DNA of 64,000 bases, taken from the NCBI GenBank assembly GCA_003963305.1, contig RXJR01000010.1:62001-126000 (forward strand), read 5' to 3'. Source of the DNA: Candidatus Melainabacteria bacterium (GTDB lineage: Bacteria > Cyanobacteriota > Vampirovibrionia > Obscuribacterales > Obscuribacteraceae). The position numbers and the translations under genes are program-made. This document shows positions 5,406-55,735 of the stretch, in pieces. Within the stretch, counting starts at the first letter, position 1; each line of letters starts with the position of its first letter. The notes beneath the pieces are model-generated. The model saw only the letters and a program-made list of their open reading frames with translations. It searched no databases and was not told where the DNA came from.

Positions 5406-5412
5406 TGCCGCC

Positions 5413-6861: not shown

Positions 6862-6938
6862 TCACCCGGAGCAAAGTTTGAGAGGCGACCCAGAGTGAAA
6901 AGCCAATTGCCAGTACCAGACTTGAAAGGCAGCAAATC

Positions 6939-9788: not shown

Positions 9789-9802
9789 CGGCGGCAACGT
9801 AG

Positions 9803-9827
9803 CGGGAGCAGCGAATCGCTGCTCCCG
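9803..9827 (+). terminator. Hairpin after the first patatin gene
   Basis: Perfect 11-base arms (CGGGAGCAGCG / CGCTGCTCCCG) around a 3-base loop, 14 bases after the stop. There is no long T-run, so it may act as an RNA stabiliser or partial terminator before the S41 gene. Confidence 0.6.
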
Positions 9828-9901
9828 TTGCACTTCTGTCATCTATCCACTGAACCGCGCACCGCCCCGCATCAGATGCGGTGGCTCACAGGGAGGTTTG
9901 T

Positions 9902-10924: not shown

Positions 10925-11000
10925 GTTTCGAAGTTTCGAACGCTGACTGGCGTTCGCTTAACCCGTTCACGCCTGCGTGAGCGCGACCCAAAGGACGATT

Positions 11001-11951: not shown

Positions 11952-11958
11952 CCCGGTA

Positions 11959-11996
11959 GATGGTGAACCTGCGCTCGCTCAGGCGGGTTCACCATC
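11959..11996 (+). terminator. Hairpin terminator of the patatin cluster
   Basis: Eleven-base perfect arms (GATGGTGAACC / GGTTCACCATC) beginning 7 bases after the stop codon, with a 16-base loop that can itself pair. Confidence 0.7.
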
Positions 11997-12095
11997 TTCC
12001 GAGCTGAGATTGGATGGGGCGCTTTGCTCCATCCAACTCTCCGCTTTTTCTTTTTCCCCGCACCTGCTACAAGGCGTAGTAAACAGCCTTTACGA

Positions 12096-14258
12096 CTACG
12101 ACTTAGTCTCTTTGCCCTTCGCCATCTGCCCAAAAGCAAAGGAACAGAGATAGAAGAGCGCAGAAATAATGAGCAGGCTGCGAATGCCTGTATAACTGGC
12201 CGTGTACTCGGTCAATCCACCAACAACTGAACCGAGCATGTTGAAAGCCAGCCCGATGCTGGGCGCTTCCTCGTCTTTGAAAGCGCTTGAGAAAATCATG
12301 CCAGCGAAAAATACTGGTATCGCAGACAGTAGCGCCGCAATCGAACCACCTACCCACATGCCCATCGAATTGAAAGTCTGGATAGGCACCACATAAAGCA
12401 CCGTCAGGGTGCCCAGTAGCCCAGCGTACATAGCCGCATTCGACAACAGCTTCGGCCTTTGCATAATGAGAATGTTAGAAAAGATAATCGCGGTGAGAAC
12501 CGCAAAGATACAAATCGAGTTAACGATCCAGGTGGTACCAAAAACCAGGGAGAGCCTGTCAATGATGCCCAGTTCGAGCAGCATGAATGCAGCCCCCAGG
12601 AAAAAGAGCTTCCAGCGACTGGCCGTTGAATTGGTTCGAATGCTCTGACCACAGGCAAACCAGGCAAGCAGCAAAATCAGCGCCATAATCGTCAAATAGA
12701 ACGGGTCAAAGCTGATCGGGCTTAAATACAAAAACGGCCAGTCATCAGTGGAGGTGCGAATACCTTCCGTCGAGATATCCGAATAATCTTTGAAGCCCTG
12801 TGTACCTAGGGCAGCCAGCACCGCTCTTGTCGCTGCCGTGGGTGGAGTGTAAAGGTGCCAGATGGCACCATCGGCTTTCTTGAAAGGTAACGGCTTCTCG
12901 GGCGACGCCTCTCTCAGATTGGCAATCAAACGCTTGGAGAGAAAGTCGACCGGAGCACAGTAAGTAATGCAGTACAGCCCGCCCGGAGCCACATGAGCGA
13001 TTGCATCCCTCATGCCGTCGACCGTGTAGACATAATCATCCAGCCGCACAGAAAGAGAGTTACCGGCCACCGCATGCGAGTCGAGAAACCCCGTTATGAC
13101 GAGATCGTATTTGTCGTGATTCTGTCTCAAGAAGGCACGGGCATCGTTTATGTAAACGGTAACCTTCGGCGAATCGTAAGGATGCTCGGGATGAAGACGC
13201 TTACCCAACTCGACCATCATTGGGTCGATTTCGACCGCGTCAACGTGCTCGGCGCCGAGCTTCAAGGCAGACGCCACGTCGTTGCCGGTGCCACTACCCA
13301 TGATGAGCACACGCTTGGCTTTGACGAAACTGTAAGGGATTTCGTACTGGTCGAAGCGAAAATCTTCCAGCTTTTTCCGTTCAGCCGGGGTCTGAGATTG
13401 AAGAAACTGATCGGACAAATTCAAGGGCTGTTGAAAGAAAGCCTTGTTAACAGCGATCTGATATCCAATCGATTGTCCGGTATCGCCAAGCTTGAGAGGA
13501 GCCACCTCGACCCGATGGTACGGCGACCAGAGAATTTCACACTTGGATGTGGCGTCATTCATGTCACCCAGAGACTTCTTCACGGGCACCACTACTGCCA
13601 CCACAATCGCCGCCGCCAGCAAAGCGATACCAATTTTGTTCTTGCGCATGGGGTAAAACGCCGCCACACAGCCAACCGCAAGCCACACAGGAGGCGGAGT
13701 GCACAAAAATGAGAGCACCGAAAAGGCGGCAATGCCAAGCACCGAGCCAAACAAGTTGTACAAATAAGACTTGAGCGGTGCAGTCTTATCAAAGAGACTG
13801 CCGAGTTTCTGCCCCAGCCCTGCCATCGTGGTCGCCACCAGAATGATGATGGAAAACAAGGCCACGAGTGACAGAGCAGTGTAGAGCATCGGCTGCTCCA
13901 CCATCTCCTTGGGCGGGTGGGTCCAGTCCCACCAGTTGGCGAACAGACCGCCGCCGACTCGCATCGAAGGCATCATAATGTCAGTCAAGCCCGTCCAGTT
14001 GCTGGTTGTAAGCAAAACCACAAGTACAAGCAAGCAAAGTGGAAAAGCTTTGAAGAGCTTACCGGAGCTCGACTCTTTCATGTAACCGAAGCCGAGCCCG
14101 ATGTAACTGGCAATCAACGGAAAGTTCTTAAAAATCGAGAAAGCACGAACTTCAGACGATAACCACCGAATGATCACCAGTTCAAGAAACAGCGAGACGG
14201 CGCTGAACCAGAACAGATCGATGATCACATTTTTGTCGTTCTGCTTTTCTGAATTCAT
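12096..14258 (-). CDS. Membrane-embedded spermidine-synthase-like methyltransferase-fold protein
   Basis: A 720-residue protein with three parts. Residues about 10-225 hold roughly seven hydrophobic segments; about 310-460 is a Rossmann domain with RVLIMGSGTGNDVASALKLG and VDAVEIDP, the SAM or decarboxylated-SAM pocket of spermidine synthases; the remainder returns to membrane segments. ATG at 14258 follows GAAAGAAAA; an upstream in-frame start adds 22 unlikely residues. Membrane-fused aminopropyltransferase-like proteins are common in bacteria but mostly of unknown substrate, and the polyamine-site DxxD pattern is not clear here, so I would not call it a true spermidine synthase. Confidence 0.82.
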   Translation of the reverse strand: MNSEKQNDKNVIIDLFWFSAVSLFLELVIIRWLSSEVRAFSIFKNFPLIASYIGLGFGYMKESSSGKLFKAFPLCLLVLVVLLTTSNWTGLTDIMMPSMRVGGGLFANWWDWTHPPKEMVEQPMLYTALSLVALFSIIILVATTMAGLGQKLGSLFDKTAPLKSYLYNLFGSVLGIAAFSVLSFLCTPPPVWLAVGCVAAFYPMRKNKIGIALLAAAIVVAVVVPVKKSLGDMNDATSKCEILWSPYHRVEVAPLKLGDTGQSIGYQIAVNKAFFQQPLNLSDQFLQSQTPAERKKLEDFRFDQYEIPYSFVKAKRVLIMGSGTGNDVASALKLGAEHVDAVEIDPMMVELGKRLHPEHPYDSPKVTVYINDARAFLRQNHDKYDLVITGFLDSHAVAGNSLSVRLDDYVYTVDGMRDAIAHVAPGGLYCITYCAPVDFLSKRLIANLREASPEKPLPFKKADGAIWHLYTPPTAATRAVLAALGTQGFKDYSDISTEGIRTSTDDWPFLYLSPISFDPFYLTIMALILLLAWFACGQSIRTNSTASRWKLFFLGAAFMLLELGIIDRLSLVFGTTWIVNSICIFAVLTAIIFSNILIMQRPKLLSNAAMYAGLLGTLTVLYVVPIQTFNSMGMWVGGSIAALLSAIPVFFAGMIFSSAFKDEEAPSIGLAFNMLGSVVGGLTEYTASYTGIRSLLIISALFYLCSFAFGQMAKGKETKS

Positions 14259-14466
14259 GTATTTTCTTTCTCTTCCGTAGCCAAGGTGCGACACCATAAA
14301 GCGCGTTGGCACACGCCTTTCCAATTCTACACGTCGAGCCAGTCAAGCTGTTAGCCCGGCTGTCTCGAGTCGCTCTTGACCAGGTCGACCGATCGAGCCG
14401 CGTCGCCTACAGCCCTGAACAGGGTAAGATCTGACGAGAGAAGAGACAGTTTGGAGAGGACAAAGT

Positions 14467-14874
14467 TTGAAAGCACTTTTTGCTCTTATTTTTGCAGTGC
14501 TCATCACCATGACTACGCAAATACCCGTGATCGCAGACAGTCAGATTTTTGACAAGCCTCTCTTCCTCATGGTTTTCGACGAAACATGCCATGCCTGGTG
14601 CAATAAAGTCAGACCGATCGTCAAAGAACTGAACGATCAGTACGGTACTCAGATTGATTTTGCAGAACTGGACATCACCACCTCAGTGCTTAACGAGAGC
14701 AAAAAACAAGCCAAACAGCTGGGAGTACTTCCTCTCTTGCCTGATTTTGGTGACCAGATTCCGTGTTGCGCTGTCTGCGCAAAAAAAAGGACCAATATTC
14801 TCAAAGAACTGGCCGGACCGAAAACGAAACAAGAGTACGAAGCACTTGTGAAACTTGCCCTGGGCAATAAATAG
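14467..14874 (+). CDS. Secreted thioredoxin-fold protein with CxxxC motif
   Basis: A 135-residue exported protein. Residues 1-24 are a signal peptide (MKALFALIFAVLITM). The thioredoxin-like pattern FLMVFDETCHAWCNKVRPIVKEL follows, with the cysteines spaced CxxxC rather than CxxC, and a second pair occurs at IPCCAVCAKK. TTG start supported by GGAGAGGACAAAG just upstream. It lies one base ahead of the kinase gene and is divergent from the membrane methyltransferase-fold gene. It probably handles thiols or metal outside the cytoplasm; the altered spacing makes ordinary disulfide reductase activity uncertain. Confidence 0.78.
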   Translation: MKALFALIFAVLITMTTQIPVIADSQIFDKPLFLMVFDETCHAWCNKVRPIVKELNDQYGTQIDFAELDITTSVLNESKKQAKQLGVLPLLPDFGDQIPCCAVCAKKRTNILKELAGPKTKQEYEALVKLALGNK

Positions 14875-14875
14875 C

Positions 14876-16852
14876 ATGAGCGAAGAGAACACTTTCACGC
14901 CAACAGTCAAGGTAACCGCTCCCGAATCGGACATCAACTTACAGCATGTGCAAAGGTGTCAAAGAGCCTCACTGATTCTGCTTGCAATGGTCTGTCTGAT
15001 TGGGTTGACGGAAGCGCTTGGCTGGGCGCTGGGCATTGATTGGATCAAGAGACCTATCGCCAATGAAAGCGCCACTCCCTCTGGTGCGGCCATTCTTTTC
15101 GCGCTCAGCGCCTCAACTATGATTCTGCTCAGCACAGGCAAACCAGGGGCTCTGAGGAAATGGCTTTCAACAGCCCTGGGCATATTCATAGGCATTGCCA
15201 GTGGTGCCACATGGCTGGAGCATTTACTCGAGCAAGACTGGAGCCTGATTCATCCGCTCTATACGACCGAAGGCTGCACGCCGCTGACCTTTCCCGGTCC
15301 AATGATGCCTGACGTATCGGCCTATTTCGTCCTCGCCGCTATCGCGCTTATCCTCTTCAGCTGGCGTGACAAACTCGGGATCAAGCTAATGCAAGTGGTT
15401 TCATCCGTTATTCTCCTGCCGAACTTGCTCATCTTCCTCTGCTATTTCTGCGGCATGAAGCACCTCTGTGCCTATTTCGGATGCATAAAGTTCTCGCCTG
15501 TAACATCACTGACCTTCGCGATATTGAGCGTCGGCATGCTCCTTGCCAACCCCGAACAGGGATTGACAAACATCTTCGTGAGAGCGACAAGCGCCGGAAA
15601 AATCGCACGTCGACTCTGCCTTGTAGGGGTAATGCTCTCTGTGCTGATTCCGGTGCGAATGGTGATGATCACAGTCTGCGCCAGGTACAATCTGGCAGAC
15701 GAGCCCATCATCAACCTTGTCACCGCCATAATCGGAGTGGTGGCGACAGCGGCTTTTATCGCCTGGTCGCTGCGCAAGTTCGATACGGTGGAAGCGCAAA
15801 AAAGACAGGCAGAAGCCGAGAAAAGCGAAGTGGTCAGCCAATTGGATTCGATCATCAATAAATCTTCTTCATCAAGGCGATTTAAACAAGTCTGCTTGCA
15901 GTGCGGCAGCGAATACGAAGACGACGTGACAGTCTGCATAAAAGACGGCGCGAAGCTATCCAAAGTTCTAGACAAACTGAAAGCAGGCGACATGTTCGCC
16001 GAACGTTACGAGATCAAGAAGACTCTGGGTGCTGGCGGAATGAGCACTGTTTATCTGGCCAACCACGTGCTCATGAACAAATTGATGGCAGTCAAATTGC
16101 TGCATGACCATCTGGCAACCGATATGAGCGCCGTGCAACGCTTTCAACGCGAAGCGCAGACGGTCACTCTACTCTCACATCCCAACATCCTCGCCGTGCA
16201 CGACTTTGGCTTGTCACCAGATGGTCTGGCGTACCTGGTTATGGATTACCTGGATGGCGCCAGTCTGCAGGAGTACATCGCACTGAAGACGAGAGTGCAA
16301 TGGCAAAAAGCATGCCAGTTCTTCCTGCAAGTCTGTTCGGGATTGCAACACGCGCACATCAAGGGCGTTGTGCACAGAGATTTAAAACCGGGCAACATCA
16401 TGCTGACCCGAGACGAAAACAAAGCCTACGTACTCAAAATCGTTGATTTCGGTCTGGCAAAAATTTGTGGTGACGACTCCGCTCAACGCCTCACTCAAAC
16501 CGGCGAAATCTTCGGCAGCCCGCTTTACATGAGCCCCGAGCAATGCCAGGGCGCCACACTTGATCACCGCAGCGACATTTATGCGCTCGGCATCATCATG
16601 TATGAAACGCTGACAGGTGAGCCACCATTTCGCGGCAAGAACATAGTCGAAACCTTCCACAAACAGATCATAGAACCGCCAGCACCGCTGTCAGCCGAGC
16701 TTGGCGTGCCTGAAAAACTGGCAAGTATCATTTATAAATGCCTGGCTAAAGACGCAGACGATCGTCCGCAATCCGCATCAGAAATTACCGAAGCTATCAA
16801 TGAAGCGCTTAATCAAAACACAACTGCCAACTGGCGAGGACCGCTACAGTAG
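14876..16852 (+). CDS. Membrane-anchored Ser/Thr protein kinase with zinc ribbon
   Basis: A 658-residue kinase. Residues about 30-300 contain around eight membrane segments in an integral sensor-like region. A short coiled linker (about 303-325) and a zinc-ribbon-like CLQCGSEYEDDVTVC (about 341-355) follow. The PknB-type kinase domain runs about 378-645: glycine loop GAGGMSTV (385-392), Lys407, HRD at 500-502, DFG at 524-526 and the SPEQ activation-segment end. All catalytic residues are present. Start chosen at ATG 14876, directly after the upstream stop; a TTG at 14855 would overlap. It is cotranscribed with the secreted thioredoxin-fold gene, which might provide the sensed signal (inference). 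Confidence 0.9.
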   Translation: MSEENTFTPTVKVTAPESDINLQHVQRCQRASLILLAMVCLIGLTEALGWALGIDWIKRPIANESATPSGAAILFALSASTMILLSTGKPGALRKWLSTALGIFIGIASGATWLEHLLEQDWSLIHPLYTTEGCTPLTFPGPMMPDVSAYFVLAAIALILFSWRDKLGIKLMQVVSSVILLPNLLIFLCYFCGMKHLCAYFGCIKFSPVTSLTFAILSVGMLLANPEQGLTNIFVRATSAGKIARRLCLVGVMLSVLIPVRMVMITVCARYNLADEPIINLVTAIIGVVATAAFIAWSLRKFDTVEAQKRQAEAEKSEVVSQLDSIINKSSSSRRFKQVCLQCGSEYEDDVTVCIKDGAKLSKVLDKLKAGDMFAERYEIKKTLGAGGMSTVYLANHVLMNKLMAVKLLHDHLATDMSAVQRFQREAQTVTLLSHPNILAVHDFGLSPDGLAYLVMDYLDGASLQEYIALKTRVQWQKACQFFLQVCSGLQHAHIKGVVHRDLKPGNIMLTRDENKAYVLKIVDFGLAKICGDDSAQRLTQTGEIFGSPLYMSPEQCQGATLDHRSDIYALGIIMYETLTGEPPFRGKNIVETFHKQIIEPPAPLSAELGVPEKLASIIYKCLAKDADDRPQSASEITEAINEALNQNTTANWRGPLQ

Positions 16853-39254: not shown

Positions 39255-42368
<3,114 letters not shown>

Positions 42369-43016
42369 CTTTCTGCTCCCTTCTTGTCATAGCCGTCTAA
42401 TGCGGCCTGATTGATAACAGTCAAGCGTTCAGGAACAATTCCTGAACTCACTGAACTATGTCAGCGAAGAGCGAGCGTTGTCCATCGCCATTGTTGGCGC
42501 TCGCCTGGCGAAGAGCTCTCACATTGCTCGAAACCTCAAACTCGGGTCTTAAAACACTGAACGGAGCCGATTCCACGCCGGTTATGGCGCAAGCAGATAG
42601 GCTTTCTTCAGGGCAAGTTACAAGTGGGCCGAGAGTTTCGTTTGGTTAGGGGCAAGAGAGATACTCTTACCGTATTGAACTGCTCGGCTCGATGTCAAGA
42701 TTAATCATACAGAGAACATTAAGCCCCTGTGTGAGCCCGGCAGTGGCGCTGCGCAAGCAAGTAAGAGATTCGACGGCTGGAACCCTCCACCCCACGCGCC
42801 CTGGACTCATGTAGCGCCGCTGCGCCACCTGGCCGGTCAGACAGTCCATCCGACAGGGCTAGCGCACTCGCCGCAGCAGTGTTGGAGAAATTAGCTGCGG
42901 CAAGACTTTATTGATTTATTGCAGCACCTTGTTGCCTTTCAATGCCCACTTCTGAATCAGCAAATCGATGTCCGAATCTTCCCAGTTGTGGTGCCACAAC
43001 TGCCAATAATAGGTCA
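42369..43016. other. Non-coding stretch, no gene recognised
   Basis: About 650 bases between the start of the tandem-AAA FtsH gene and the YceI stop. It should contain the FtsH promoter (minus strand, near 42370-42480). Short frames here lack ribosome binding sites. No RNA family or repeat was identified. Confidence 0.4.
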
Positions 43017-43688
43017 CTATTTCTTGACCGCATCTATCTTGATCACGATCGTAATGGCTTTGTTGATCCAGACGAAGCCATCAGGATGCAGCTTCTTCAA
43101 GGTGAGGTTGTAATCACCTTGATCCACGACGGTTGAACCGATGGCAGAGAGGCGACTCTGACCAGCTTTACCAGTGGTTAGTTTTGGCAAATCCATGAGG
43201 ACATCAACAACTCTGGTCACACCGTGAAGGGTAAATTTGCCAGTCAATACATACTTATTCGTTGAACTCTTCGAGCCTGAGTTTTTTCCATTCAAAGCTC
43301 TCTTAGCGCCGCTGCCGCTGCCCGCCTGCTTAGCAAATTTAGTCGAAACGAATGAGGCATCGGCATATTTCGCCACATCGAAATAACCAACACTTTTCAG
43401 GTCTTCATCCCTTTTGACGATGCTTGTTGAAATCGTACTCAAGGGAATCTTCGCCAAGACCCTGGAACCATCAGGCATGGCAGGGTCGTACTGCACTTCC
43501 CCTGATACATTGCTGAAGGTGCCCTGAACACTCATTGATGCACCATTTTTTGTATAGAAGTGCACATTCGAAGTTTTGCTGTCTATAGTCCAGCTACTCG
43601 AACCAGCCATTGCATGCAAAGGGAAGCCAGACTGAACTGCAATCAGGCAAAGCAAGAGACTACCGTATTGGATCTTCAACTTCTGCAC
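43017..43688 (-). CDS. YceI-family periplasmic lipid-binding protein
   Basis: A 223-residue exported lipocalin-like protein. Signal peptide at about 1-28, then SSSWTIDSKTSNVHFYTKN, matching the YceI opening W.ID..hS.v.F, and LTGKFTLHGVTRVVDVLMDL, the diagnostic second block. A low-complexity insert (GSGSGAKRALNGKNSGSKSS) sits at about 123-142. Members bind polyprenoid or amide-type lipids. GTG start at 43688. The AT-rich upstream region has another TAGTATAGTA-like element. Confidence 0.88.
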   Translation of the reverse strand: MQKLKIQYGSLLLCLIAVQSGFPLHAMAGSSSWTIDSKTSNVHFYTKNGASMSVQGTFSNVSGEVQYDPAMPDGSRVLAKIPLSTISTSIVKRDEDLKSVGYFDVAKYADASFVSTKFAKQAGSGSGAKRALNGKNSGSKSSTNKYVLTGKFTLHGVTRVVDVLMDLPKLTTGKAGQSRLSAIGSTVVDQGDYNLTLKKLHPDGFVWINKAITIVIKIDAVKK

Positions 43689-43926
43689 TTCGCGGGGACA
43701 CCTTCTGGTTCCATATTGCCAAACCTGGCGAAAATTGCAAGCCCACCCCTTGGTGAGGTTTACACAACCTCAACTGATGCTCTACAAGTTCACAGATCTC
43801 ACTGCGTTTCGGCGGTTCGGCGACGCACTATCTACTTAGTATAGTAGAAAACTGGGAAAGAAATAGCACTATCAGCAGTGGCACATTCAGAACCATACAA
43901 CAGGGATTCGAATCAAGCATCCAGGC

Positions 43927-43955
43927 GCTCAAGGCAGCGTGCAACCGCCTTGAGC
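43927..43955 (-). terminator. Terminator hairpin of the copper/sulfur operon
   Basis: GCTCAAGGC / GCCTTGAGC, nine perfect pairs with an 11-base loop, 20 bases past the last stop of the operon. Confidence 0.75.
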
Positions 43956-43974
43956 AACCCGATGCTAAAAGAAA

Positions 43975-44145
43975 CTAGAAGATCGAGACGCCGAAAATCA
44001 TCGTCGCCACAAACGCGCCCAGCGTGCCGGCGACTAGAACAGCGAGAAACGTGAGCGTGTAATACTGCGGCGGAACCGGGTCAGGCACCGTGTGGTAGCC
44101 TTCCAGCTGACGCAGGAAGTGACGGTCTGGCAAGTTAGTAGGCAT
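43975..44145 (-). CDS. Small single-pass membrane protein (56 aa)
   Basis: A 56-residue protein starting MPTNLPDRHFLRQLEGYH at the ATG at 44145, after TGGAGCAAAACGG. It has a proline-rich, tyrosine-containing segment (HTVPDPVPPQYYTL) and one C-terminal membrane helix (FLAVLVAGTLGAFVATMIF). Size and topology suggest an accessory subunit. It is the last gene of the operon, 58 bases after the cysteine-desulfurase-like gene, with a GCGGGTGG/CCACCCGC hairpin in that gap. Confidence 0.68.
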   Translation of the reverse strand: MPTNLPDRHFLRQLEGYHTVPDPVPPQYYTLTFLAVLVAGTLGAFVATMIFGVSIF

Positions 44146-44203
44146 CCGTTTTGCTCCAGATTGGCGGGTGGCAGCCGGAGCAGAGACCACCCGCGCTGAT
44201 TGA

Positions 44204-45487
44204 CTAGATGTTGCTGCGAAGCACTTCAATCAAGCGATCGATTTCTGCCTCGCTGGTGTACACATGCATGCTGACTCGCACGTAGTCGTCGCCATCCTGA
44301 ACAGTGGTCAGGCAGTGGTCGCCGGTGCGCACGAGTATATCCTCGCTTTCGAGCAGAAACGCCAGGTCACTGGTCGAGACATGCTCGAATCTGAACGAAA
44401 CGATGCCGAATCCGCGATGGCAACCACAGCGGTCGACTCCCGGCGAAAAGTCAATTCCAGGCAGGGTTTTCAGCTTGCTGTACAAGCTACGAGTCAAAGC
44501 CGACAGCCTGCGATCCACGACGCCCAAACCGCCAATGGACTCGATGAAATCCAGAGCAGCGCCCAGCGAAAGAATAGCGGGAATGTTCTGTGTGCCCGCC
44601 TCGAGCAGAGTCGCTGCCGATTGCGGCGAAACGCTGAATTCACTTCCGGGCGCCCTCGTCATGCCACCACCGACGATGACAGGCTTAAGCTGCCCCAGCA
44701 ACGACTTGCGCACATAGAGCACGCCAACGCCGTTGCTGCTGAACATCTTGTGCCCTGAGAAGGAAAGAAAATCGACGTTGAGTCGCCTGACATTGACCGG
44801 GCGATGCCCGATGCTCTGACTGGCGTCAAGCGAAATCAAGACTTTCCGTCCGACAATCTTGCGAATCTCACCGATCTCCATGTCCAGTCCGAAAAGATGA
44901 TGAACATGGCTGACCGCAATCAAACGAGTGCGATCGCTAAGAGCTTCGCGAATGCTCTTGAGCTCATAGTCGCCCTCATGGTGAAGCCGAATCGGAACGA
45001 TGTTGATCTCGATTCCGAACTGCTTGAGAGTCGACTGCAAGTTCAACCACGGCAGCACCGTCGACTTGTGGTCTTGCAAACAGAGCATGATCTCATCGCC
45101 GGATTTGAGATTAGCCAGCCCCCACGACAGAGCCACGAGATTCAGACTCTCAGTAGCTCCGCTCGTGAAGCAGACTGTTTCGGGAGTAGCGCCGATAAAA
45201 CGAGCGACGCGAGCGCGCGTTTCTTCCAGGCGAGCACTGAGTTTAGTGCTGCGTGCGTAGGCAGCGCGCGCAGAGTTAGAGCACTCATAGGCGAGGAATT
45301 CACTCACCACGTCGATAACAGTCTGCGGCTTCTGAGTCGTAGCAGCGTTATCGAAGAAGATGGTGTTCGGTTCGCGTTGAAACACAGGAAACAGCTGCCG
45401 AACCGCATCTACAGAGAAAGCCTGCGGTTCGACAGCGCAACTGTCAGGCGGTGGCGTTGCACCACTGACCTTTCTTTTCTTGGTCAT
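44204..45487 (-). CDS. SufS-like cysteine desulfurase (class V aminotransferase fold)
   Basis: A 427-residue PLP enzyme. It starts at ATG 45487 (MTKKRKVSG) after AGGAAGTGAGG; a longer frame overlaps the upstream gene. IFFDNAATTQKP opens the fold; Asp221 (LDASQS) and Lys247 in LSFSGHKMFS bind PLP, and Cys392 in VRTGDHCLTTV matches the mobile-loop Cys of SufS (RxGHHC). It should therefore release persulfide sulfur from cysteine, or selenium from selenocysteine. The N-terminal 28 residues are unusual. No sufE, sufU or sufBCD is adjacent; instead the gene follows, by 7 bases, a cysteine synthase-rhodanese fusion that could take or give the sulfur. Confidence 0.88.
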   Translation of the reverse strand: MTKKRKVSGATPPPDSCAVEPQAFSVDAVRQLFPVFQREPNTIFFDNAATTQKPQTVIDVVSEFLAYECSNSARAAYARSTKLSARLEETRARVARFIGATPETVCFTSGATESLNLVALSWGLANLKSGDEIMLCLQDHKSTVLPWLNLQSTLKQFGIEINIVPIRLHHEGDYELKSIREALSDRTRLIAVSHVHHLFGLDMEIGEIRKIVGRKVLISLDASQSIGHRPVNVRRLNVDFLSFSGHKMFSSNGVGVLYVRKSLLGQLKPVIVGGGMTRAPGSEFSVSPQSAATLLEAGTQNIPAILSLGAALDFIESIGGLGVVDRRLSALTRSLYSKLKTLPGIDFSPGVDRCGCHRGFGIVSFRFEHVSTSDLAFLLESEDILVRTGDHCLTTVQDGDDYVRVSMHVYTSEAEIDRLIEVLRSNI

Positions 45488-45494
45488 AAGAACC

Positions 45495-46826
45495 TCACTT
45501 CCTGGCAGAGACAGACTTCTGCAAGGGCTTGCCCGCATCGCGCCAGGCGATGAAGCCGCCTTTGAGCGATGCACAGTCGATGCCCTTGCTGGCGAAGTAA
45601 GCGACGAAACGCTTCGACTGGTCACCGACCGGACAAACGAAGAGAACACGCTGGTCTTGAGAGAAGGGCACGCCCCATTCAGCCAGATCGTCCAGCTGTT
45701 CTGTCGGCAGGTTGATGGAACCAGCGATGCGACCTGCTTTGAAAGCGAGCGCCCCACGCAGGTCGACAACCAGAGCTGACTTGCCGCCAGCGAGCCATTT
45801 TTCAGCAGCTGCCGGAGCCAGCTCCTTTGCTTTGCTCACCTGGCCGGCGTTGACGTTGCGCGGTGAGTCTTTGCGGGCTTCGACGCCAAACAGTTGCGGG
45901 CGGTACTTCTGCAGGTAACTGAGATACCACTCGACACGGTCGTTGACGATGAAGACAGCCTTTTTAGGCTCCGTCAAGGTCGCGTCGATTTCGCGCAACC
46001 GCTTCACGGCAGCGGTGAAGGCAGCGCCCGAGGTCGGTCCCGCCAGCACACCCATGCGCGTCAGCGTGACGATGCCATCGATAGCGTCATCGATTGAAAC
46101 CTCTACGATCTGCTGGTAGAGCTCTTTGCGGAACAGCCCCACCTCGAACATTTCGTCGGCATTGCGAATGCCGGGAACACCGTCGCCCTTCTTCGCCACC
46201 ACGCCAATCAGCTGCAACTTTTCGTTGTGCAAGCGCAGAAACTCGCTAGTGCCGCGAGACGAGCCTGTCGTACCCATACCGGCGATGAAGTAGTCGACAG
46301 GCGCGCCGCCGAGATCAGCGAGAATTTCAGGACCCGTGCCGTCAAAGTGAGCCGCTGTGTTCATCTCGTTGGTGAACTGCGTGGTATGCACGTACTTCCC
46401 CGGCTCAGCCGCTACCAGCCTTTCGATCCAGGCGATCGGATTGTTCGGGTCGCTGGGGTCGGGGCAGGAAGACATGCCCGGAAACTCGGTCACTTCAGCG
46501 CCGAGCAACTGCAGCATCTGCTTCACCTCACGCACCTGAATGCGGCTGGTGACGACGCGGAAGGGTACGCCGTGCATGTTGCAGATAATGGACATGGCTT
46601 TGGCCATGTTGCCGCTGGAAGACTCGATCACGGTCTGGTCGAGGGCAGCAGCACCGGCAATCTGACCTTGCAGGATCTTCCAGGCCGGGCGGTCCTTGAG
46701 CGATCCGAACGGATTCAGATGCTCGAGCTTGGCGTACAGCGTGATGTTTTTCAACCCGTGCACGGACGGGTCGATTTCCAGAAGCGGAGTGCGACCGATC
46801 AAATCGGTCATTTTCTTAACAAGCAT
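45495..46826 (-). CDS. Cysteine synthase-like PLP enzyme fused to rhodanese
   Basis: A 443-residue fusion. Residues about 1-310 are a fold-type II PLP enzyme of the CysK/CysM/SbnA family: IGRTPLLEI, PLP Lys44 in NPFGSLKDRPAW, the substrate loop ESSSGNMAKA (68-77), GMGTTGSSRG and GPTSGAAF. Residues about 335-440 are a rhodanese domain with VVDLRGALAFKAGRIAGSINLP and active-site Cys398 in FVCPVGDQS. It could make cysteine or a beta-substituted alanine and pass sulfur through the rhodanese Cys; which nucleophile it uses is unknown. ATG 46826 after AAGGAGACTGATT. Confidence 0.9.
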   Translation of the reverse strand: MLVKKMTDLIGRTPLLEIDPSVHGLKNITLYAKLEHLNPFGSLKDRPAWKILQGQIAGAAALDQTVIESSSGNMAKAMSIICNMHGVPFRVVTSRIQVREVKQMLQLLGAEVTEFPGMSSCPDPSDPNNPIAWIERLVAAEPGKYVHTTQFTNEMNTAAHFDGTGPEILADLGGAPVDYFIAGMGTTGSSRGTSEFLRLHNEKLQLIGVVAKKGDGVPGIRNADEMFEVGLFRKELYQQIVEVSIDDAIDGIVTLTRMGVLAGPTSGAAFTAAVKRLREIDATLTEPKKAVFIVNDRVEWYLSYLQKYRPQLFGVEARKDSPRNVNAGQVSKAKELAPAAAEKWLAGGKSALVVDLRGALAFKAGRIAGSINLPTEQLDDLAEWGVPFSQDQRVLFVCPVGDQSKRFVAYFASKGIDCASLKGGFIAWRDAGKPLQKSVSARK

Positions 46827-46837
46827 AATCAGTCTCC

Positions 46838-48370
46838 TTAGCGAGTCAGACGCCAGATGGGCGTGTACTGCTCATCCAGCATCCAGTGAAAGCGCCTGCG
46901 CTCACGCACAACCGCAACGCGTCGCGCTGGCGGCTGCATGATGGAATTGGTGGCACTGAAGTCCATCATGTAAGCAGCAGTGTTGATGAAAGCGACGAGG
47001 TCGCCTGGCTCAGGCAGGAAGGGCAGAGAGACCCTGTGCCGGAAGATCAAGTCGCCCTCCAGGCAGAGATTGCCTGTAAAGAAAACAGATGCACCAGAGG
47101 CAGCAACTGTGTCCGCACCAGAAGCAGCTGTGTCCGCACCATGGACAGTGCCGGCATCGACATTCTTCCCAGCGGCCGATTTGCGGCTAATCACCACCGG
47201 GTCTACGAACACCTCCTGGTCAAGGAAGCTCAGGTCCTGGCGCTTCATGTTCAAGCCGACCAGAGTATCGCCGCTGGCTGAGACTTTCACACTGTTGACC
47301 CGAGCAACGGTGACACCGCACTGATCGAGCAGAGCGCGGCCCGGTTCGATCCACAACTCGATCATGTTGTCGCGCAGGACCTCACCAACAGGGCGTCCGC
47401 CCAATGAAGGCAACTGCGCATTGAGGATGTCATCCAGGAAAAGCGCACCGGGACGAGACTCGAAGTACGAGTATGTGTTGAGCTTGCCGCGCAAAACACC
47501 CTGATCAGCGGCCAGTCCGAAGAAGTTATTCTGCCAGGTGAGTTGCTGACCGGCACCCAGAGCAGCTTGCTTCAGCGCAGAAACATAGGCCAGCCACTCT
47601 TCCTCGTTCTCGAGATAGCTAATTTTGAAACCGCCGCCGATGTCGAGTACACGCGGCTCAAGCCCCATCGTCAGCGCTTCCTCAAAGGCAGAGAGGCAGT
47701 TCTCCACCGCCACGACGCGTTCATCAACAGTGACGGTGTCGAGGTGGAAAGAATAGCCAAGCAGCGTCAGATACTTGCTCTTCGCCACGAACTCCAGAGC
47801 TTCTCGCCTGGCATCGAATGCGATACCAAACCGACTTTGCTTCTGCAGCACAGGCGTATGAGCAGCAAAGAAACCGGAGAACCGCAAAAGCAGCCGCGCT
47901 CGCTCTTTCAGCCTGAGAGTACGGGCGACCTTTTCGATATCCCGCAACTCAGCCAGACTGTCGACGTTCAAGACGACGGCATGCTGCAGGCACAAGGCAA
48001 TGAACTCGGGCGACTTGGGACCTGTCGCTTCCAGTCTGTCACCGGTGAAACCTGCTCCCAGTGCATGACGCAGCTCCTCCGGAGAAGCCACATCTGCACC
48101 AACCACCTCGGTCGCCAACTGACGAATCAGGCTATGCGACTGATTCGACTTGTGAGCAAAAAAGATCCGACCGGAAAGCCCGTGGTCGCTCAAGACACGC
48201 CGGAAAGAAGCGACGTTCTCAGCCAACTGTTCGGGAAACAAAACATTCAAAGGCGAGCCGCAGGCAAGCGTCATATCTTGCAAGAAAGGACGCTTATCCA
48301 GAAAGGCCGCCACCAGAGCCGAAAGGCGAGGACGCAGCCTCAGTGGTGCGCCCGCATTAGCGTTATTCAT
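46838..48370 (-). CDS. PLP-dependent decarboxylase (ornithine/DAP type, alanine-racemase fold)
   Basis: A 510-residue group IV decarboxylase related to LysA, NspC and SbnH. PLP Lys74 is in IFFAHKSNQSHSL; the barrel has VLDIGGGFKISY and WIEPGRALLDQ, and the active-site Cys-Glu pair appears as NLCLEGDLI. An Ala/Gly/Thr-rich insert (about 400-432) interrupts the C-terminal domain just before it. The substrate cannot be fixed: diaminopimelate, ornithine, carboxynorspermidine or a siderophore precursor are all seen in this family. ATG 48370 after AAGGAGAATGAC, 31 bases after the membrane gene. Confidence 0.87.
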   Translation of the reverse strand: MNNANAGAPLRLRPRLSALVAAFLDKRPFLQDMTLACGSPLNVLFPEQLAENVASFRRVLSDHGLSGRIFFAHKSNQSHSLIRQLATEVVGADVASPEELRHALGAGFTGDRLEATGPKSPEFIALCLQHAVVLNVDSLAELRDIEKVARTLRLKERARLLLRFSGFFAAHTPVLQKQSRFGIAFDARREALEFVAKSKYLTLLGYSFHLDTVTVDERVVAVENCLSAFEEALTMGLEPRVLDIGGGFKISYLENEEEWLAYVSALKQAALGAGQQLTWQNNFFGLAADQGVLRGKLNTYSYFESRPGALFLDDILNAQLPSLGGRPVGEVLRDNMIELWIEPGRALLDQCGVTVARVNSVKVSASGDTLVGLNMKRQDLSFLDQEVFVDPVVISRKSAAGKNVDAGTVHGADTAASGADTVAASGASVFFTGNLCLEGDLIFRHRVSLPFLPEPGDLVAFINTAAYMMDFSATNSIMQPPARRVAVVRERRRFHWMLDEQYTPIWRLTR

Positions 48371-48401
48371 GTCATTCTCCTTGGAAAACTCCAGGCTCAG
48401 G

Positions 48402-48974
48402 TCACATGGACATATGCGCCATGAAGAGCGAAGGGGCGATCGACATGACCAACATCACACCACCCATGGTGGCGTGAGCGAGGTCGGAACCGATGTAAAA
48501 GAGGCTGCGCGATTTGAAATCGTGGCAGAACTCGTAGATGTAATAACCTGTCAGCCACAGCCAGAAAAGGCTGAGCCCAACACTCAAAGGCATGAAGTGC
48601 ACGCCTGCATACATGACGGCCATACCGCCCAGCATGCCGACGTGAGCCCAGTCCCACCACCACCTGGTGGCGTAAGGCACTCGCTTGCCCCAGGTCAGGG
48701 CGCGGGCGGTGAAGTAGAGTGCCGTCACAGACAGAGCGACGGTGAAGACGAAGTTGGGAATGGGCAAAAGCATAGGCGCCAGCATGGGCACCATAGCCAG
48801 AGCGCACAGTCCGTGCCCGAACTCATTCTCCAGGTCGGAGTATCCGTAGACGGCTTTAACCGACTCCGGAAAGAGCCCACGGTAAAGATAGAAACAGGCG
48901 ACGCCGAAGAACCAGACGGCGAAAGGAAGCAGCACGGACTCCGGAAGAGCCGCTGTGACGTTGATAAGGTCCAT
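48402..48974 (-). CDS. Multi-pass membrane protein, DUF5134-like, short form
   Basis: A 190-residue protein with about five membrane helices. It shares long conserved blocks with 51511-52203: GYSDLENEFGHGLC, ARALTWGKRVPYATRWWWDWAHV and IGSDLAHATMGGVM, where conserved His, Glu and Asp lie in or near membrane segments. It resembles actinobacterial DUF5134 proteins in size and pattern, but that is recall. It lacks the Met/His-rich tail and ends MAHMSM. ATG 48974 after AAGGAGTTCCCT. Position beside the P-type ATPase suggests a role in metal transport. Confidence 0.8.
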   Translation of the reverse strand: MDLINVTAALPESVLLPFAVWFFGVACFYLYRGLFPESVKAVYGYSDLENEFGHGLCALAMVPMLAPMLLPIPNFVFTVALSVTALYFTARALTWGKRVPYATRWWWDWAHVGMLGGMAVMYAGVHFMPLSVGLSLFWLWLTGYYIYEFCHDFKSRSLFYIGSDLAHATMGGVMLVMSIAPSLFMAHMSM

Positions 48975-49000
48975 AGGGAACTCCTTGATGCAAGTGAAAA

Positions 49001-49026
49001 CCCCGGTCAGAACTCTCTGACCGGGG
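49001..49026 (-). terminator. Intra-operon hairpin between the ATPase and membrane genes
   Basis: CCCCGGTCAGA / TCTGACCGGGG, 11 perfect pairs with a 4-base loop, in the 72-base gap after the ATPase stop. It may lower expression of the downstream PLP genes relative to the transporter genes. Confidence 0.6.
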
Positions 49027-49046
49027 AGTTATGGGTGCCAGGGCAA

Positions 49047-51422
<2,376 letters not shown>

Positions 51423-51467
51423 AAGTCCTCCTGGATAATGGTTGCACAGAAGAAAGCGCGCCGAACA

Positions 51468-51489
51468 TTCGAAACGTTTTTGTTTCGAA
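51468..51489. promoter_or_regulatory. Palindromic stem in the gap ahead of the ATPase gene
   Basis: TTCGAAAC / GTTTCGAA with a T-rich 6-base loop, flanked by further imperfect GCGCG/CGCGC pairing. It lies in the 88 bases between the Met/His-tail gene stop and the ATPase start; it could be an attenuator or an operator. Confidence 0.5.
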
Positions 51490-51510
51490 ATTCGACGCGC
51501 CGCCTTGAAC

Positions 51511-52203
51511 TTACTTCTTGGAGCCGTGGTCCATGCCGGGCATGTTGTGATCCATGCCGGACATGCCGTGACCCATGCCGGACATGTTGTGATCCATGTC
51601 GGACATGTTGTGCGGCATGCCGCTCATGTTGTGCTGCATGCCGGGCATGTCGCCATGACAGCAGCAATCACCCATAGCAGGCATCATCGCCATGGGAAAG
51701 AGAAGCATGAGCAGCATGACGAAGCCCATAGCAGAGTGAGCGATGTCTGAACCCATGTACAGCACTTTGCCCGTGCGCGAGTCATGGACGAGCTGATACA
51801 GGTAGTACGCACCCAGCCACGCCCAGAAGAGACCGAAGGGGATGGTGAGCCAGAGCGGCGAGAAGCCGGCGAACATGATGGACATGCCACCCAGCATGAG
51901 CACATGCGCCCAATCCCACCACCACCTGGTGGCATAGTTGACACGCTTGCCCCAGGTGAGGGCACGAGCAGTAAAAACGGCGGCGCCAACGCCCAGCACC
52001 CACGTCCAGACTGCAGCCGGGATGGGCAAGAACGCCGGAGAGAGCATGGTGACCATGGCAAACATGCACAGACCGTGACCGATCTCGTTCTCCCAGTCGG
52101 AGTAGCCGTAAGTCGCCTGCACATGCGAGGGGCGCAGCAAGCGATAGAGGTAGAAAAGTCCACCAGCCGCAAACAATGCGGCGAGCATATCTAGATAGTT
52201 CAT
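51511..52203 (-). CDS. Membrane protein (DUF5134-like) with Met/His-rich C-terminal tail
   Basis: A 230-residue protein with about five membrane helices (residues 1-175) and the same core blocks as 48402-48974 (GYSDWENEIGHGLC, TRWWWDWAHVLMLGG, MGSDIAHSAMGF). Residues about 171-230 are an extreme Met/His/Gly tail: GDCCCHGDMPGMQHNMSGM, then repeats of the MDHNMSGM type. Such Met/His runs bind Cu(I)/Cu(II) in proteins such as CopA/PcoA and PcoE. A copper chaperone or sink role beside the P-ATPase is a reasonable inference. ATG 52203 after AAGGAACCAAGTT; first gene of the operon. Confidence 0.85.
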   Translation of the reverse strand: MNYLDMLAALFAAGGLFYLYRLLRPSHVQATYGYSDWENEIGHGLCMFAMVTMLSPAFLPIPAAVWTWVLGVGAAVFTARALTWGKRVNYATRWWWDWAHVLMLGGMSIMFAGFSPLWLTIPFGLFWAWLGAYYLYQLVHDSRTGKVLYMGSDIAHSAMGFVMLLMLLFPMAMMPAMGDCCCHGDMPGMQHNMSGMPHNMSDMDHNMSGMGHGMSGMDHNMPGMDHGSKK

Positions 52204-53088
52204 AACTTGGTTCCTTTTTCTGTCTTAGTGACAACGGAGGAGCGGCGAATCTGACAGAAACGCCGCAGACAAACGCCTCAAGCGCCGCCACCGCTCACAA
52301 TCAGGCAAGCATCCCAGCGCACGGAAGTGCGCTTAACGGCGGATTGCTTGAATCTGAAGATGGAGAAGTCGGAGGCAAAAACTCGAGAACGATGAAGTTA
52401 AACAGGACATCTGACTATGCAACTGGTTCGAGCACTCACGTAAGCTCCCCCACGGGATGCCTGAAAACGAGAGAACATGGCAAATACGGCTTTTCATCAG
52501 CTTCTTAATCAAGTCATAAGGTCAAAACAAGCTCGCAGAGCCGGATGTGCCAATCCCGGGGTAGGGGTTCAGGTAACAATCCGATATATTCAGCCAGTCA
52601 ATATGCGCACAATCCTGGCGCTCACGCGAGCTATTGGCGCGCTCTGCATTGGCATGGTCACAAAGGTACTGCGCTAGCTCTGCAAATGTCCCAGCTAGTT
52701 TAAGGATTGGACATCTTGGCATCACGAGATCTTAACCAACCCTGATGGGCTGCGCCTTTGAACAGTGAAATGGCAGCGGTCAGGCACCATAAGCCGTGTT
52801 GTCAAGCGATTGTCGTCAGAGGGAGGAAGCCAATAGGTTGAATATGTCCAGTTTCCTCTTGCCCCACGAGAACATAACCAAAAAAGCCTGAAGCGCTGCC
52901 CAAAGCTTTAGAGTCCTTTTTTACATACCTTCACGCCAGGTCTCGTGGTGCGGCTCGTGCTCGATTTTTCAGCGATTCATTTTCACATCGTCTGGCGCAG
53001 CAAATCGCGTGGTTTTCAGACGCGTGTTCGCAATGTCCTACTGCCGGCAACTCCGCCGCGCAGTTCCATCCACGTCTAAAGGACAATC
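52204..53088. other. Non-coding stretch with divergent promoters
   Basis: About 885 bases between the start of the copper/sulfur operon (minus) and the 53089 gene (plus). No supported gene: short frames lack ribosome binding sites. I looked for a CueR- or CsoR-like palindrome and did not see an obvious one. Both operon promoters should lie here. Confidence 0.4.
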
Positions 53089-53847
53089 ATGAAGTCTCAC
53101 ATCAGGGCTTTCTTCGGCCACCGGGCTGTGCAGGTTGTGACGTTCGTCGTCGCGACCGCGGCTGTGCTCGGTGCGTTCGGAGTCTACGCCAAGGACAACG
53201 GTCTTCTGACCGGCGACAAGACCCCCAGCATCACCTGGCTGACCCGGTCCAATGTCGCAGACGAGCTCAACATCCAGCAGTCCTCCACGGGTGCAGTCAC
53301 GGCCAAGCCTGGGCAGCCCGTGCTCCTGATCGAGTGCCCGACCGAGGCATGCGACTCGTCGACACTCAACATCCCGGCTGTGGTGAAGCAGTTCGGTGAC
53401 CAGGTGAAGATCCTGGCCATCAACCCCTACACCGAGAAGGACCTCGCTGCCGCACTCGAGCAGTCGTTCATCATCCCCGCCGTGCAGAACGCCGTCGTCA
53501 GCACGCTCGCCCAGAGCGTCGCTCAGCAGCAGGCCGGCGCCGATGCCACCATCACCGCGGCCCAGGTGCAGGCGGTGCTCAAGGACTCGTCCTTCCAGAG
53601 CCAGGTGCAGCAGGTGCTCGCCTCGCCCCAGGCATTCGAGCAGGTGGCGCCTTCGCTCTACGCGCTCCTGCAGCCGGTCTACCCGAAGTTCTTCCTCTTC
53701 GATGCCAACTTCCAGCTGCTCAGCGCCGCCACCGGCATCGACGTCACGTCGCAGAGCGACCTGACAAGCTTCGTCCAGAGCGCGCTCACGCCCGCTACCG
53801 CCCCGTCCTCGAGCGACTCCTCCGCTGCCGCCGGCAGCGGGAAGTAA
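53089..53847 (+). CDS. Membrane-anchored thioredoxin-like protein
   Basis: A 252-residue protein with one N-terminal membrane or signal segment (VQVVTFVVATAAVLGAFGVYA, about 14-34) and the rest exposed outside. PGQPVLLIECPTEACDSSTL has a thioredoxin-like start with a CxxxxC pair (CPTEAC), and the C-terminal LQPVYPKFFLFDANFQLL looks like the closing strands. A Gln/Ala-rich helical insert (about 130-200) separates them. ATG 53089 after AAAGGACAATC. It lies 25 bases ahead of the FtsH-like gene, so it may be the exported partner of that protease. Confidence 0.72.
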   Translation: MKSHIRAFFGHRAVQVVTFVVATAAVLGAFGVYAKDNGLLTGDKTPSITWLTRSNVADELNIQQSSTGAVTAKPGQPVLLIECPTEACDSSTLNIPAVVKQFGDQVKILAINPYTEKDLAAALEQSFIIPAVQNAVVSTLAQSVAQQQAGADATITAAQVQAVLKDSSFQSQVQQVLASPQAFEQVAPSLYALLQPVYPKFFLFDANFQLLSAATGIDVTSQSDLTSFVQSALTPATAPSSSDSSAAAGSGK

Positions 53848-53872: not shown

Positions 53873-55735
53873 GTGACTATCACAACTCTCGTCATCGCAG
53901 CCATCGCCTTCGTTGCTTTCAACGGGCTGAGCTGCTTCAACACCAAGTTCCGTGACCGGTTCTTCGGCACGCTCTGGCGCACGCGCTACATCTTCGCGTT
54001 CGTGGCCGCCGTCTACTTCCTGCTGCCCGCGATCATCGGTCCGAGTGCCTCGCACTCCATCCTGTCGATGCTGCCTTCGATCATCCTGCAGTTCGTCATG
54101 GCCATCGTCTTCGTCGGCTTCCAGTTCGGCATGATGTTCTGGATGATGGGCAACGCCAACAAGCCCGAGGTCTACCTGCCCGGTGACGCACCGACCAAGG
54201 AGTGGTCCGACTGGATCGGCTCGGAGGGCGTCAAGAAGGAGCTCCAGAAGGCGGTCGAGTCGCTGCGCCGCTGGGAGCTCTACGAGAAGAACGGCACCAA
54301 GCCGCTGAACGGCATGCTCCTCTACGGCCCTCCCGGCACCGGCAAGTCGCTCGCTGCCAAGGTCGTCGCCAGCCAGGCTGGTCTGCCTGTCGTGATCGCG
54401 TCGGCTGCCTCGCTCAACGGTCCGTTCATGGGCATGGGCATGCTGCTCGTGCGCGGGCTGTCGCGCCGCGTCAAGAAGCTGGCTCGCAAGTACGGCGGCT
54501 GCGTCGTCTTCCTCGACGAGATCGACGCCATCGGCGCCACGCGTAGTGGCCTCGGTGGTGGCATGGGTATGCCCATGGGCGGCATGGGTGGTTTCATGGG
54601 CGGTGGCATGGGCGGCAACGGCACGCTCCAGTCGCTGCTCACCGTCATGTCTGGCGCTGAGGGCGGCGAGACCTTCCTGCTCAAGCTGCGCAAGCGCTGG
54701 GGTCTGGCCAAGCGTGACAAGAAGCACACCTGGCGCATCCTCTGGATGGCTGCCACCAACGTCGCGCTCGAGACCCTCGACCCGGCTTTGATCCGCTCCG
54801 GTCGTTTCGGCTCCAAGAAGCTCGCAGTCAACGCCCCCAACGACGACAACCGCCGTGCCCTGTTCAACCTCTACCTGCGCAAGAAGAACGTCGCCGACGA
54901 CCTCGATTTCGACCAGCTCGTGCAGCTCTCGCGCGGCATGACCGGTGCTGACATCGAGGAGGTCTGCGAGGCGGCCATGCGCACGATCATCTTCGAGGGC
55001 AGCGATCGACCGCTGGCCTTCGCCGACATGTTCGCCGAGATCCGCCTGCACAAGAACGGCGTGCCGCGCTCGGTGCCCCTGCACGAGAAGGAGCGCTACC
55101 CGATCGCCGTGCACGAGGCCGGTCACGGTACCGCTGTCGTGCTCTACCCGCCCGCCGGCATGCTCTGCTCCGGCGCGACCCTGACGCCGACCGAGGACTT
55201 CCTCGGTGCAGTCATGTTCGAGCGCGTCGAGGAGCTCTCCCTGATGATGAAGGAGGACTGCTACCGGCGTGTCCTCATCGCCGTCGCCTCGCGTGCGGCC
55301 GAGAAGGTTGTGCTCAACGACGCTTCGGCTGGTGTGTCGAGCGACCTCAACCAGGCCATGAGCATGGCTCTGGCCATGGTCGAGCACTACGGCATGGGTG
55401 ACCGGCTCACCTCGGCTGCCGCCATCGGTGGTGGCCACTCGCCGCGTGCCGTCGAGCAAGCCGAGGACATCGTCAACGCCACCTACGAGGTGGCCGAGCG
55501 CCTTATCGACTCCAACCAGAATGCCGTCAAGGCGCTCGCCGACTCGCTCGTGGCCGAGGTCAACCTGACCGGCCCGCAGGTCATCGACCTGGTCATGCAG
55601 CACGCCCAGATCCCCTTCGAGTCGGTGGCTGCCGAGGTCGAGGGTGTGGTGGCGCGCCTCAAGCAGGAGCGCAAGACCAGGCACCAGTCCACCGACGTCG
55701 CGCCGAAGGCTGGCGACACGTCCGAGGTTTCGTAA
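53873..55735 (+). CDS. Divergent FtsH-like AAA+ M41 protease with Gly/Met-rich insert
   Basis: A 620-residue protein. Three or four membrane segments lie within residues 1-95, more than the two of classical FtsH. The AAA module has GPPGTGKS (152-159), VVFLDEIDAIG (211-221) and ATNVALETLDPALIRSGRF. Directly after Walker B is a 24-residue insert made almost only of Gly and Met (GMGMPMGGMGGFMGG, about 226-249). The M41 domain has HEAGH (414-418) and Asp491 in GVSSDLNQA. The pore loop reads FMG. Catalytic residues are present. GTG start at 53873. It is 8 bases ahead of the MoxR gene, an unusual pairing. Confidence 0.87.
   Translation: MTITTLVIAAIAFVAFNGLSCFNTKFRDRFFGTLWRTRYIFAFVAAVYFLLPAIIGPSASHSILSMLPSIILQFVMAIVFVGFQFGMMFWMMGNANKPEVYLPGDAPTKEWSDWIGSEGVKKELQKAVESLRRWELYEKNGTKPLNGMLLYGPPGTGKSLAAKVVASQAGLPVVIASAASLNGPFMGMGMLLVRGLSRRVKKLARKYGGCVVFLDEIDAIGATRSGLGGGMGMPMGGMGGFMGGGMGGNGTLQSLLTVMSGAEGGETFLLKLRKRWGLAKRDKKHTWRILWMAATNVALETLDPALIRSGRFGSKKLAVNAPNDDNRRALFNLYLRKKNVADDLDFDQLVQLSRGMTGADIEEVCEAAMRTIIFEGSDRPLAFADMFAEIRLHKNGVPRSVPLHEKERYPIAVHEAGHGTAVVLYPPAGMLCSGATLTPTEDFLGAVMFERVEELSLMMKEDCYRRVLIAVASRAAEKVVLNDASAGVSSDLNQAMSMALAMVEHYGMGDRLTSAAAIGGGHSPRAVEQAEDIVNATYEVAERLIDSNQNAVKALADSLVAEVNLTGPQVIDLVMQHAQIPFESVAAEVEGVVARLKQERKTRHQSTDVAPKAGDTSEVS

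Follow-up and report, generated by a model that had tools for sequence, protein, structure and literature searches.

The window analysed here, a 64,000-nucleotide stretch of contig RXJR01000010.1 from a Candidatus Melainabacteria bacterium (family Obscuribacteraceae), carries seven minus-strand genes, A to G, at positions 43975-52203, in which a copper-type ATPase (B) and two DUF5134-like membrane proteins (A and C) precede three pyridoxal phosphate (PLP) enzymes: a decarboxylase (D), a CysM-like enzyme fused to a rhodanese domain (E) and a SufS-like cysteine desulfurase (F). Our comparisons lead us to read D-E-F, with moderate confidence, as a copper-associated paralogue of a widespread metal-limitation cassette that would make a small sulfur-containing metal ligand. 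The safest statements are that a conserved metal-linked sulfur cassette exists and that its copper-linked form has a single origin. The D-E-F arrangement is more than chance, since it recurs both among relatives (32 of 99 genomes) and in several other phyla.

Conservation of the cassette and origin of its copper-linked form

Those 99 genomes (Obscuribacteraceae) were searched with E as query, and wherever E was found it almost always had D before it and F after it. The neighbourhoods were sorted into three types. Type 1, with the Cu-ATPase and a DUF5134-like gene upstream of the trio, comprises the window locus and those of genomes G022, G015 and G038, together with G018 and G023, which were placed by the tree. 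Both upstream genes are present in 4/4 type-1 loci with upstream sequence, in the order A-B-D-E-F or B-A-D-E-F (with three small open reading frames intervening in G038), and the ATPase is found in none of the type-2 or type-3 loci. The DUF5134-ATPase pair of G023 sits at a contig end, on a contig other than that of the trio, which fits one broken locus. The type-1 E proteins share 61-63% identity with that of the window and form, in a maximum-likelihood tree of E, a single clade (support 100/100) inside the Obscuribacteraceae radiation, adjoining type 2.

Type 2 is the majority, and its fullest form has a core of c5 (serine-kinase-like), c3 (a CooC-like ATPase), D, E and F, along with genes for a CrtO-like FAD enzyme, a GNAT-like protein, a Fur-family regulator, methyltransferases, a beta-hydroxylase-like protein and a BT1-type transporter. 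Type 3 consists of an IscS-type desulfurase, c3, D and E, and in three Obscuribacteraceae genera the IscS-type enzyme stands in place of the SufS-like one in the same operon. Two genomes, G022 and that of the window (G000; 7.48 Mb, 44 contigs, 95% complete), have both type-1 and type-2 copies. The Zur-type copy of the window genome (L049, G000:C33:44000-63900, positions 5755-13892) encodes c5, the CooC-like protein, D, E, F, a GNAT-like protein and a Fur-family regulator.

The first-pass annotation of the window had proposed neighbourhood conservation as a check, and conservation was found, for D-E-F in relatives and other phyla and for the fusion protein with a DUF5134-like gene in all four copper-clade loci that have upstream sequence. 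Its copper reading changes, in that copper is not the trio's primary association: the commonest context is Fur-family/Zur-linked with a CooC-like ATPase and the copper link belongs to one derived clade. The suggested coupling of a copper pump to sulfur mobilisation stands in so far as sulfur goes with metal handling, but copper is only a derived association.

The same genome contains a third, more distant cluster (L182, G000:C2:106000-122000, positions 4036-15900), which looks like another metal-linked small-molecule cluster. It encodes a Fur-family regulator, a 944-aa protein ending in a PALP domain, a D-like decarboxylase, an SDR, a Cys/Met-metabolism PLP enzyme, two DAO-type oxidases, a MOSC protein and a BT1-type transporter.

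Outside the family, an alignment scan for E over 84,980 species genomes (taxonomy of metagenome-assembled genomes as in their records) detected full-length E in Bacillota, Ktedonobacteria, Micavibrio and other Alphaproteobacteria, Deltaproteobacteria, Patescibacteria and DPANN archaea. Upstream sequence is available for E in 23 loci outside Obscuribacteraceae; of these, 23 have a D-type gene, 21 a CooC-like gene and about 15 an F-type desulfurase (hand count). The c3 protein matches CooC (3kje, E=4.5e-25) and keeps an invariant Cys in a CYH motif. A minimal version in Patescibacteria (L124 6124-9413 and L128 6551-9400) has a Fur-family regulator, a CooC-like ATPase and a distant E-rhodanese protein, with no D or F; in L124 a SaoD/DsrE-type sulfur protein is also present. 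Given this protein and the IscS-type swap, the conserved element is sulfur delivery. In a complete Ktedonobacteria genome (L091 5533-12450), E occurs as a tandem pair, one copy without and one with the rhodanese domain.

Metal regulation

By sequence evidence, the cassette appears to be switched on by metal shortage, and the metal concerned is probably zinc. About a dozen Obscuribacteraceae type-2 and type-3 loci have the palindrome AATGRAAACGRTTTYCATT ahead of the operon, with 0.1 expected per sequence; it resembles mycobacterial Zur boxes (PMC4298942) and also some delta-proteobacterial Fur boxes (PMC545781). In other lineages, boxes of the gamma/alpha Zur type, ATGTTATAWTATAACAT (PMC3516566), lie 40-60 bases upstream of the operon in L093 (exact), L097, L109, L116 and L118 (Micavibrio). 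In Pacebacteria L111 the upstream site is an exact copy of the Desulfovibrio Zur palindrome ATGCAACNNNGTTGCAT (PMC545781), and TGAAAATGATTTTCA (PMC2823685) precedes the operon in L090 and, mismatched at one base, in L088; predicted start codons overlap the sites in L088, L090 and L111, and the start calls there may be wrong.

Fur-family regulators also lie alongside the cassettes of other lineages, and are taken as Zur where both regulator and operator are diagnostic; those of Micavibrio (L097, L116) score 108-112 bits for Zur against ~45 for Fur, under the curated Zur cut-off. ZrgC/B/E-like zinc uptake genes (names from PMC9817125) follow the cassette in L097, and a ZIP-family transporter gene stands alongside it in L105. 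By the tree, the cassette probably started out in a Fur-family/Zur-linked operon that included a CooC-like ATPase. The type-1 loci have neither CooC nor a Zur-like box nearby. The scan that gives 18/18 matches to AATGRAAACGRTTTYCATT upstream of the type-2 copies of G022 and G000 (at 5730 of L049) gives none in the 64-kb window or the type-1 loci, and the region ahead of A, in the window as in sister loci, showed neither a Zur nor a shared copper operator. Taken at the level of sequence, the regulation and evolution of the cassette are well supported; for the window's trio, it is the conserved adjacency that suggests a possible response to copper.

Enzymes of the trio and their proposed chemistry

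D (46838-48370, minus strand, 510 aa) is a fold-type III PLP decarboxylase of the Pfam Orn/Arg/diaminopimelate (DAP) decarboxylase family, with the motifs FAHK (lysine), DIGGG, EPGR and NLCLEGD (active-site Cys). Beside the active Cys, a Leu occupies the position of the substrate-binding Glu of DAP decarboxylase, and the family shows CLEGD or CLESD, hydrophobic after the Cys, versus CESGD. A lysine-biosynthesis role for D was rejected, with a lysA score of 132 bits against a cut-off of 297.9. E (45495-46826, minus strand, 443 aa; Pfam PALP and rhodanese) has an intact rhodanese active site with the loop VCPxGxxS, and its PLP Lys, SSGN loop and PGIR Arg are kept in 34/34 Obscuribacteraceae sequences. 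F (44204-45487, minus strand, 427 aa; Pfam class-V aminotransferase) has its catalytic Cys in RTGDHC and its PLP Lys in GHK, and was rejected as the housekeeping SufS (321.5 bits against a cut-off of 475.1). The catalytic residues of all three enzymes are kept in the family members aligned. Since full-score LysA, CysK/M and SufS exist elsewhere in the same genome, outside the trio, D-E-F is not a housekeeping set.

The likely substrate of E is O-phosphoserine, because the PGIR Arg is conserved and serine-kinase-like genes lie alongside the operon in three lineages. This Arg aligns with the RN region of 3dwg, the mycobacterial CysM, in which the arginine is the phosphate-binding residue for O-phosphoserine. 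In Pacebacteria (L111), a 128-aa protein adjoining the operon matches the archaeal free serine kinase (5x0b, E=8e-9), and its homologue stands directly after E in Nanoarchaeota (L129). In type-2 loci, the C-terminal domain of c5 has a fold match to serine kinase/SbnI in the nine top-ranked comparisons (Z 5.6-7.2), a link that comes from fold comparison at modest Z, through the agreement of those top matches and a DGNHR motif; the sequence profile of c5 gave no match in the PDB.

We infer a pathway in which F would take sulfur off cysteine as a persulfide and pass it to the rhodanese domain of E. The PLP domain of E would form aminoacrylate from O-phosphoserine and then add a nucleophile, either sulfur or an amine as in SbnA, and D would decarboxylate the product to give a small sulfur-containing metal ligand. 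Such a ligand is favoured because of the tailoring and transport genes of type 2, the SbnA/SbnH/SbnI-like chemistry and the recurrent metal control. In the window's clade its role would be to bind Cu(I) or hand it over, for export or buffering, as suggested by the lack of CooC and Zur-like box in this clade and by the Cu(I) ATPase and DUF5134-like His/Met membrane proteins next to the trio. A metallophore or thiol ligand, as first proposed, is still the best guess, and copper detoxification by sulfide is the less favoured possibility.

We consider it unlikely that the trio only supplies sulfur, raising the local level of thiol, persulfide or sulfide, which would bind Cu(I) directly or help to rebuild copper-damaged iron-sulfur (Fe-S) clusters, with no special ligand. 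Cu(I) is established to damage Fe-S clusters, a desulfurase, a rhodanese and a cysteine-synthase-like enzyme with intact catalytic residues form a sulfur-relay set, and the SaoD/DsrE protein of one minimal version is in keeping with this. However, sulfur supply gives no role to the decarboxylase, which adjoins E in nearly all loci with upstream sequence; the non-copper majority is Zur/Fur-linked; and the operon has no SufBCD or scaffold gene, while its genome has a full-score SufS elsewhere.

A rather improbable alternative is that the cassette in its ancestral form serves to mature or load a metal site, with the CooC-like protein as inserter and the PLP enzymes giving a sulfur ligand, and that the window copy has this function for a copper protein. 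The homology of c3 to CooC, with its invariant Cys, and its presence in 21 of the 23 loci outside the family speak for such a metallochaperone role, but no client metalloprotein is recurrent beside the cassette, the copper copies have no adjacent CooC, and the type-2 tailoring enzymes (hydroxylase, two methyltransferases, FAD oxidase, GNAT-like) and BT1-type transporter resemble small-molecule biosynthesis.

Copper genes and organization of the locus

B (49047-51422, minus strand, 791 aa) is a Cu(I)-type P1B ATPase (TIGR01511, 511 bits against a cut-off of 397) with N-terminal YHS and HMBD domains (Pfam) and the Cu(I) P1B-1 motifs CPC (at 437), YNALSVP (YNxxxxP) and MSFSSVAVIAN (MxxSSxxVxxN). 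A (51511-52203, minus strand, 230 aa) is a multi-helix membrane protein with GMxHNMS repeats in its C-terminal tail, the last 45 residues of which hold 12 Met and 6 His. C (48402-48974, minus strand, 190 aa) shares 56% identity with A where the two align and has no such tail. At 27.2 and 24.6 bits, A and C are below the PF17197 gathering cut-off of 29 and are DUF5134-like, not members by the Pfam rule. The helices of both proteins carry conserved His, Met, Cys and acidic residues (NExxHxxC, DWxH, HxxMG). The predicted structure of C is a confident multi-helix model (predicted local distance difference test score 84.9), which had no match at E <1 in a fold comparison with the PDB, a result that does not establish a new fold. 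In two DUF5134-like relatives, a thioredoxin-like CxxC C-terminal domain replaces the Met/His tail (L031 3376-4386, L048 12583-13500). Another DUF5134-like gene lies near a NicO/HoxN-type metal permease and a further CooC-like ATPase (L180, G008:C13, 6925-10098).

The last gene, G (43975-44145, minus strand), codes for a 56-aa single-helix membrane protein with no family match, and neither G nor the second DUF5134-like copy, C, is conserved in the sister loci. The gaps from A to G are 88, 72, 31, 11, 7 and 58 bases. A check of open reading frames in the window agreed with the first-pass annotation on all seven genes and on these gaps of 7-88 bases, and purine-rich ribosome sites are visible upstream of most of the seven starts, where it had described AAGGAG-type sites. 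Its description of one seven-gene operon holds for gene set and spacing but not securely for transcription. A strong intrinsic terminator on the same strand, CCCCGGTCAGA-GAGT-TCTGACCGGGG, a perfect 11-bp hairpin with 8 GC pairs followed by TTTT, occupies 49001-49026 between B and C and makes co-transcription of all seven genes doubtful. A-B and C-D-E-F-G may be two transcription units, or the terminator may attenuate read-through. An Rfam scan of 42300-53200 gave no riboswitch match, and a sigma-70 promoter scan found no site, which is uninformative for this organism.

That the trio is an amino-acid or sulfur operon standing beside copper genes without functional link, with the terminator as border and no shared copper operator found, is quite improbable given that the adjacency holds in every copper-clade locus whose upstream sequence is available (4/4), in two gene orders and across deep divergence (the 61-63% identity of E), and given that the window's own DUF5134-like gene C stands on the trio side of the terminator.

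Comparison with known systems

Literature searches found no described system with this gene set, as had been stated at first, although subscription journals were mostly uncovered and absence is not proof. The cassette resembles staphyloferrin B biosynthesis (SbnA/SbnH/SbnI) in its O-phosphoserine-type beta-replacement enzyme, its fold-III decarboxylase, the SbnI/serine-kinase-like domain of c5 in type-2 relatives and its metal-starvation control. Unlike that system, it has a rhodanese domain and a cysteine desulfurase in addition, and a copper or zinc context, not iron. The SbnA/SbnH resemblance first noted is shared in flavour, but E is nearer mycobacterial CysM, its closest PDB match (120 bits, versus 93 for SbnA), and scores 141.8 against the cut-off of 349.95 for TIGR03945, the SbnA-type 2,3-diaminopropionate enzyme. 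The initial observation that no NRPS-independent siderophore (NIS) synthetase is present extends to the whole G000 assembly, in which neither IucA/IucC (PF04183) nor an SbnB homologue (ornithine cyclodeaminase family, PF02423) was matched; a staphyloferrin B-like NIS pathway was rejected on these two results.

Like the O-phosphoserine sulfhydrylase CysM of M. tuberculosis, with which it shares the RN/PGIR arginine region, E would receive sulfur on a protein carrier and not as free sulfide, though by a fused rhodanese domain instead of the CysO thiocarboxylate, and in an operon with a decarboxylase, a desulfurase and a metal link. Zur-regulated zinc acquisition (ZrgABCDE, ZnuABC) and zincophores are comparable in that Micavibrio-type genomes have Zur boxes and Zrg-type transporter genes by the cassette, but the PLP/CooC cassette is not in the regulons of the cited papers and no Zur box accompanies the window copy. 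CooC itself is the nickel insertion ATPase of CO dehydrogenase, whereas c3, though a clear homologue, has a single conserved Cys and no adjacent CO dehydrogenase, and is missing beside the window copy. CopA-type copper export operons share the Cu(I) ATPase and a Met/His-rich protein; the window operon has no CopZ, CueR, CsoR or multicopper oxidase, and carries DUF5134-like proteins and the PLP trio instead.

Several points weigh against a metal-ligand cassette adapted to copper. The operator AATGRAAACGRTTTYCATT alone cannot separate Zur from some Fur boxes (PMC545781), and the terminator behind B may cut the trio off from the copper genes. Next to the window copy there is no serine kinase gene, CooC, dedicated exporter or metal regulator. 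E making plain cysteine for F to consume would be a futile pathway, so a different nucleophile must be involved.

More tentatively, we propose that the cassette represents a so far undescribed, cross-domain metal-starvation pathway for a new class of small sulfur-containing zinc ligand, redeployed to copper handling in one lineage. If this is right, a small-molecule or sulfur-transfer arm would be added to the bacterial and archaeal zinc-starvation response, by enzymes that genome annotation assigns to lysine, cysteine and Fe-S housekeeping. That minimal genomes (Patescibacteria, DPANN) have it would be notable because metallophore production is unexpected there. A genome with both a Zur-type and a copper-linked copy offers a before-and-after pair, in which the change of metal partner is directly testable.

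Neighbouring genes

Just downstream of the operon, on the same strand, lies a gene for a YceI-family secreted protein (43017-43688; PF04264, 100.7 bits). Beyond it, 39255-42368 codes for a 1037-aa FtsH-like protein with two AAA domains followed by one HExxH peptidase motif, and a second FtsH-like gene (53873-55735) stands on the opposite side of the operon.
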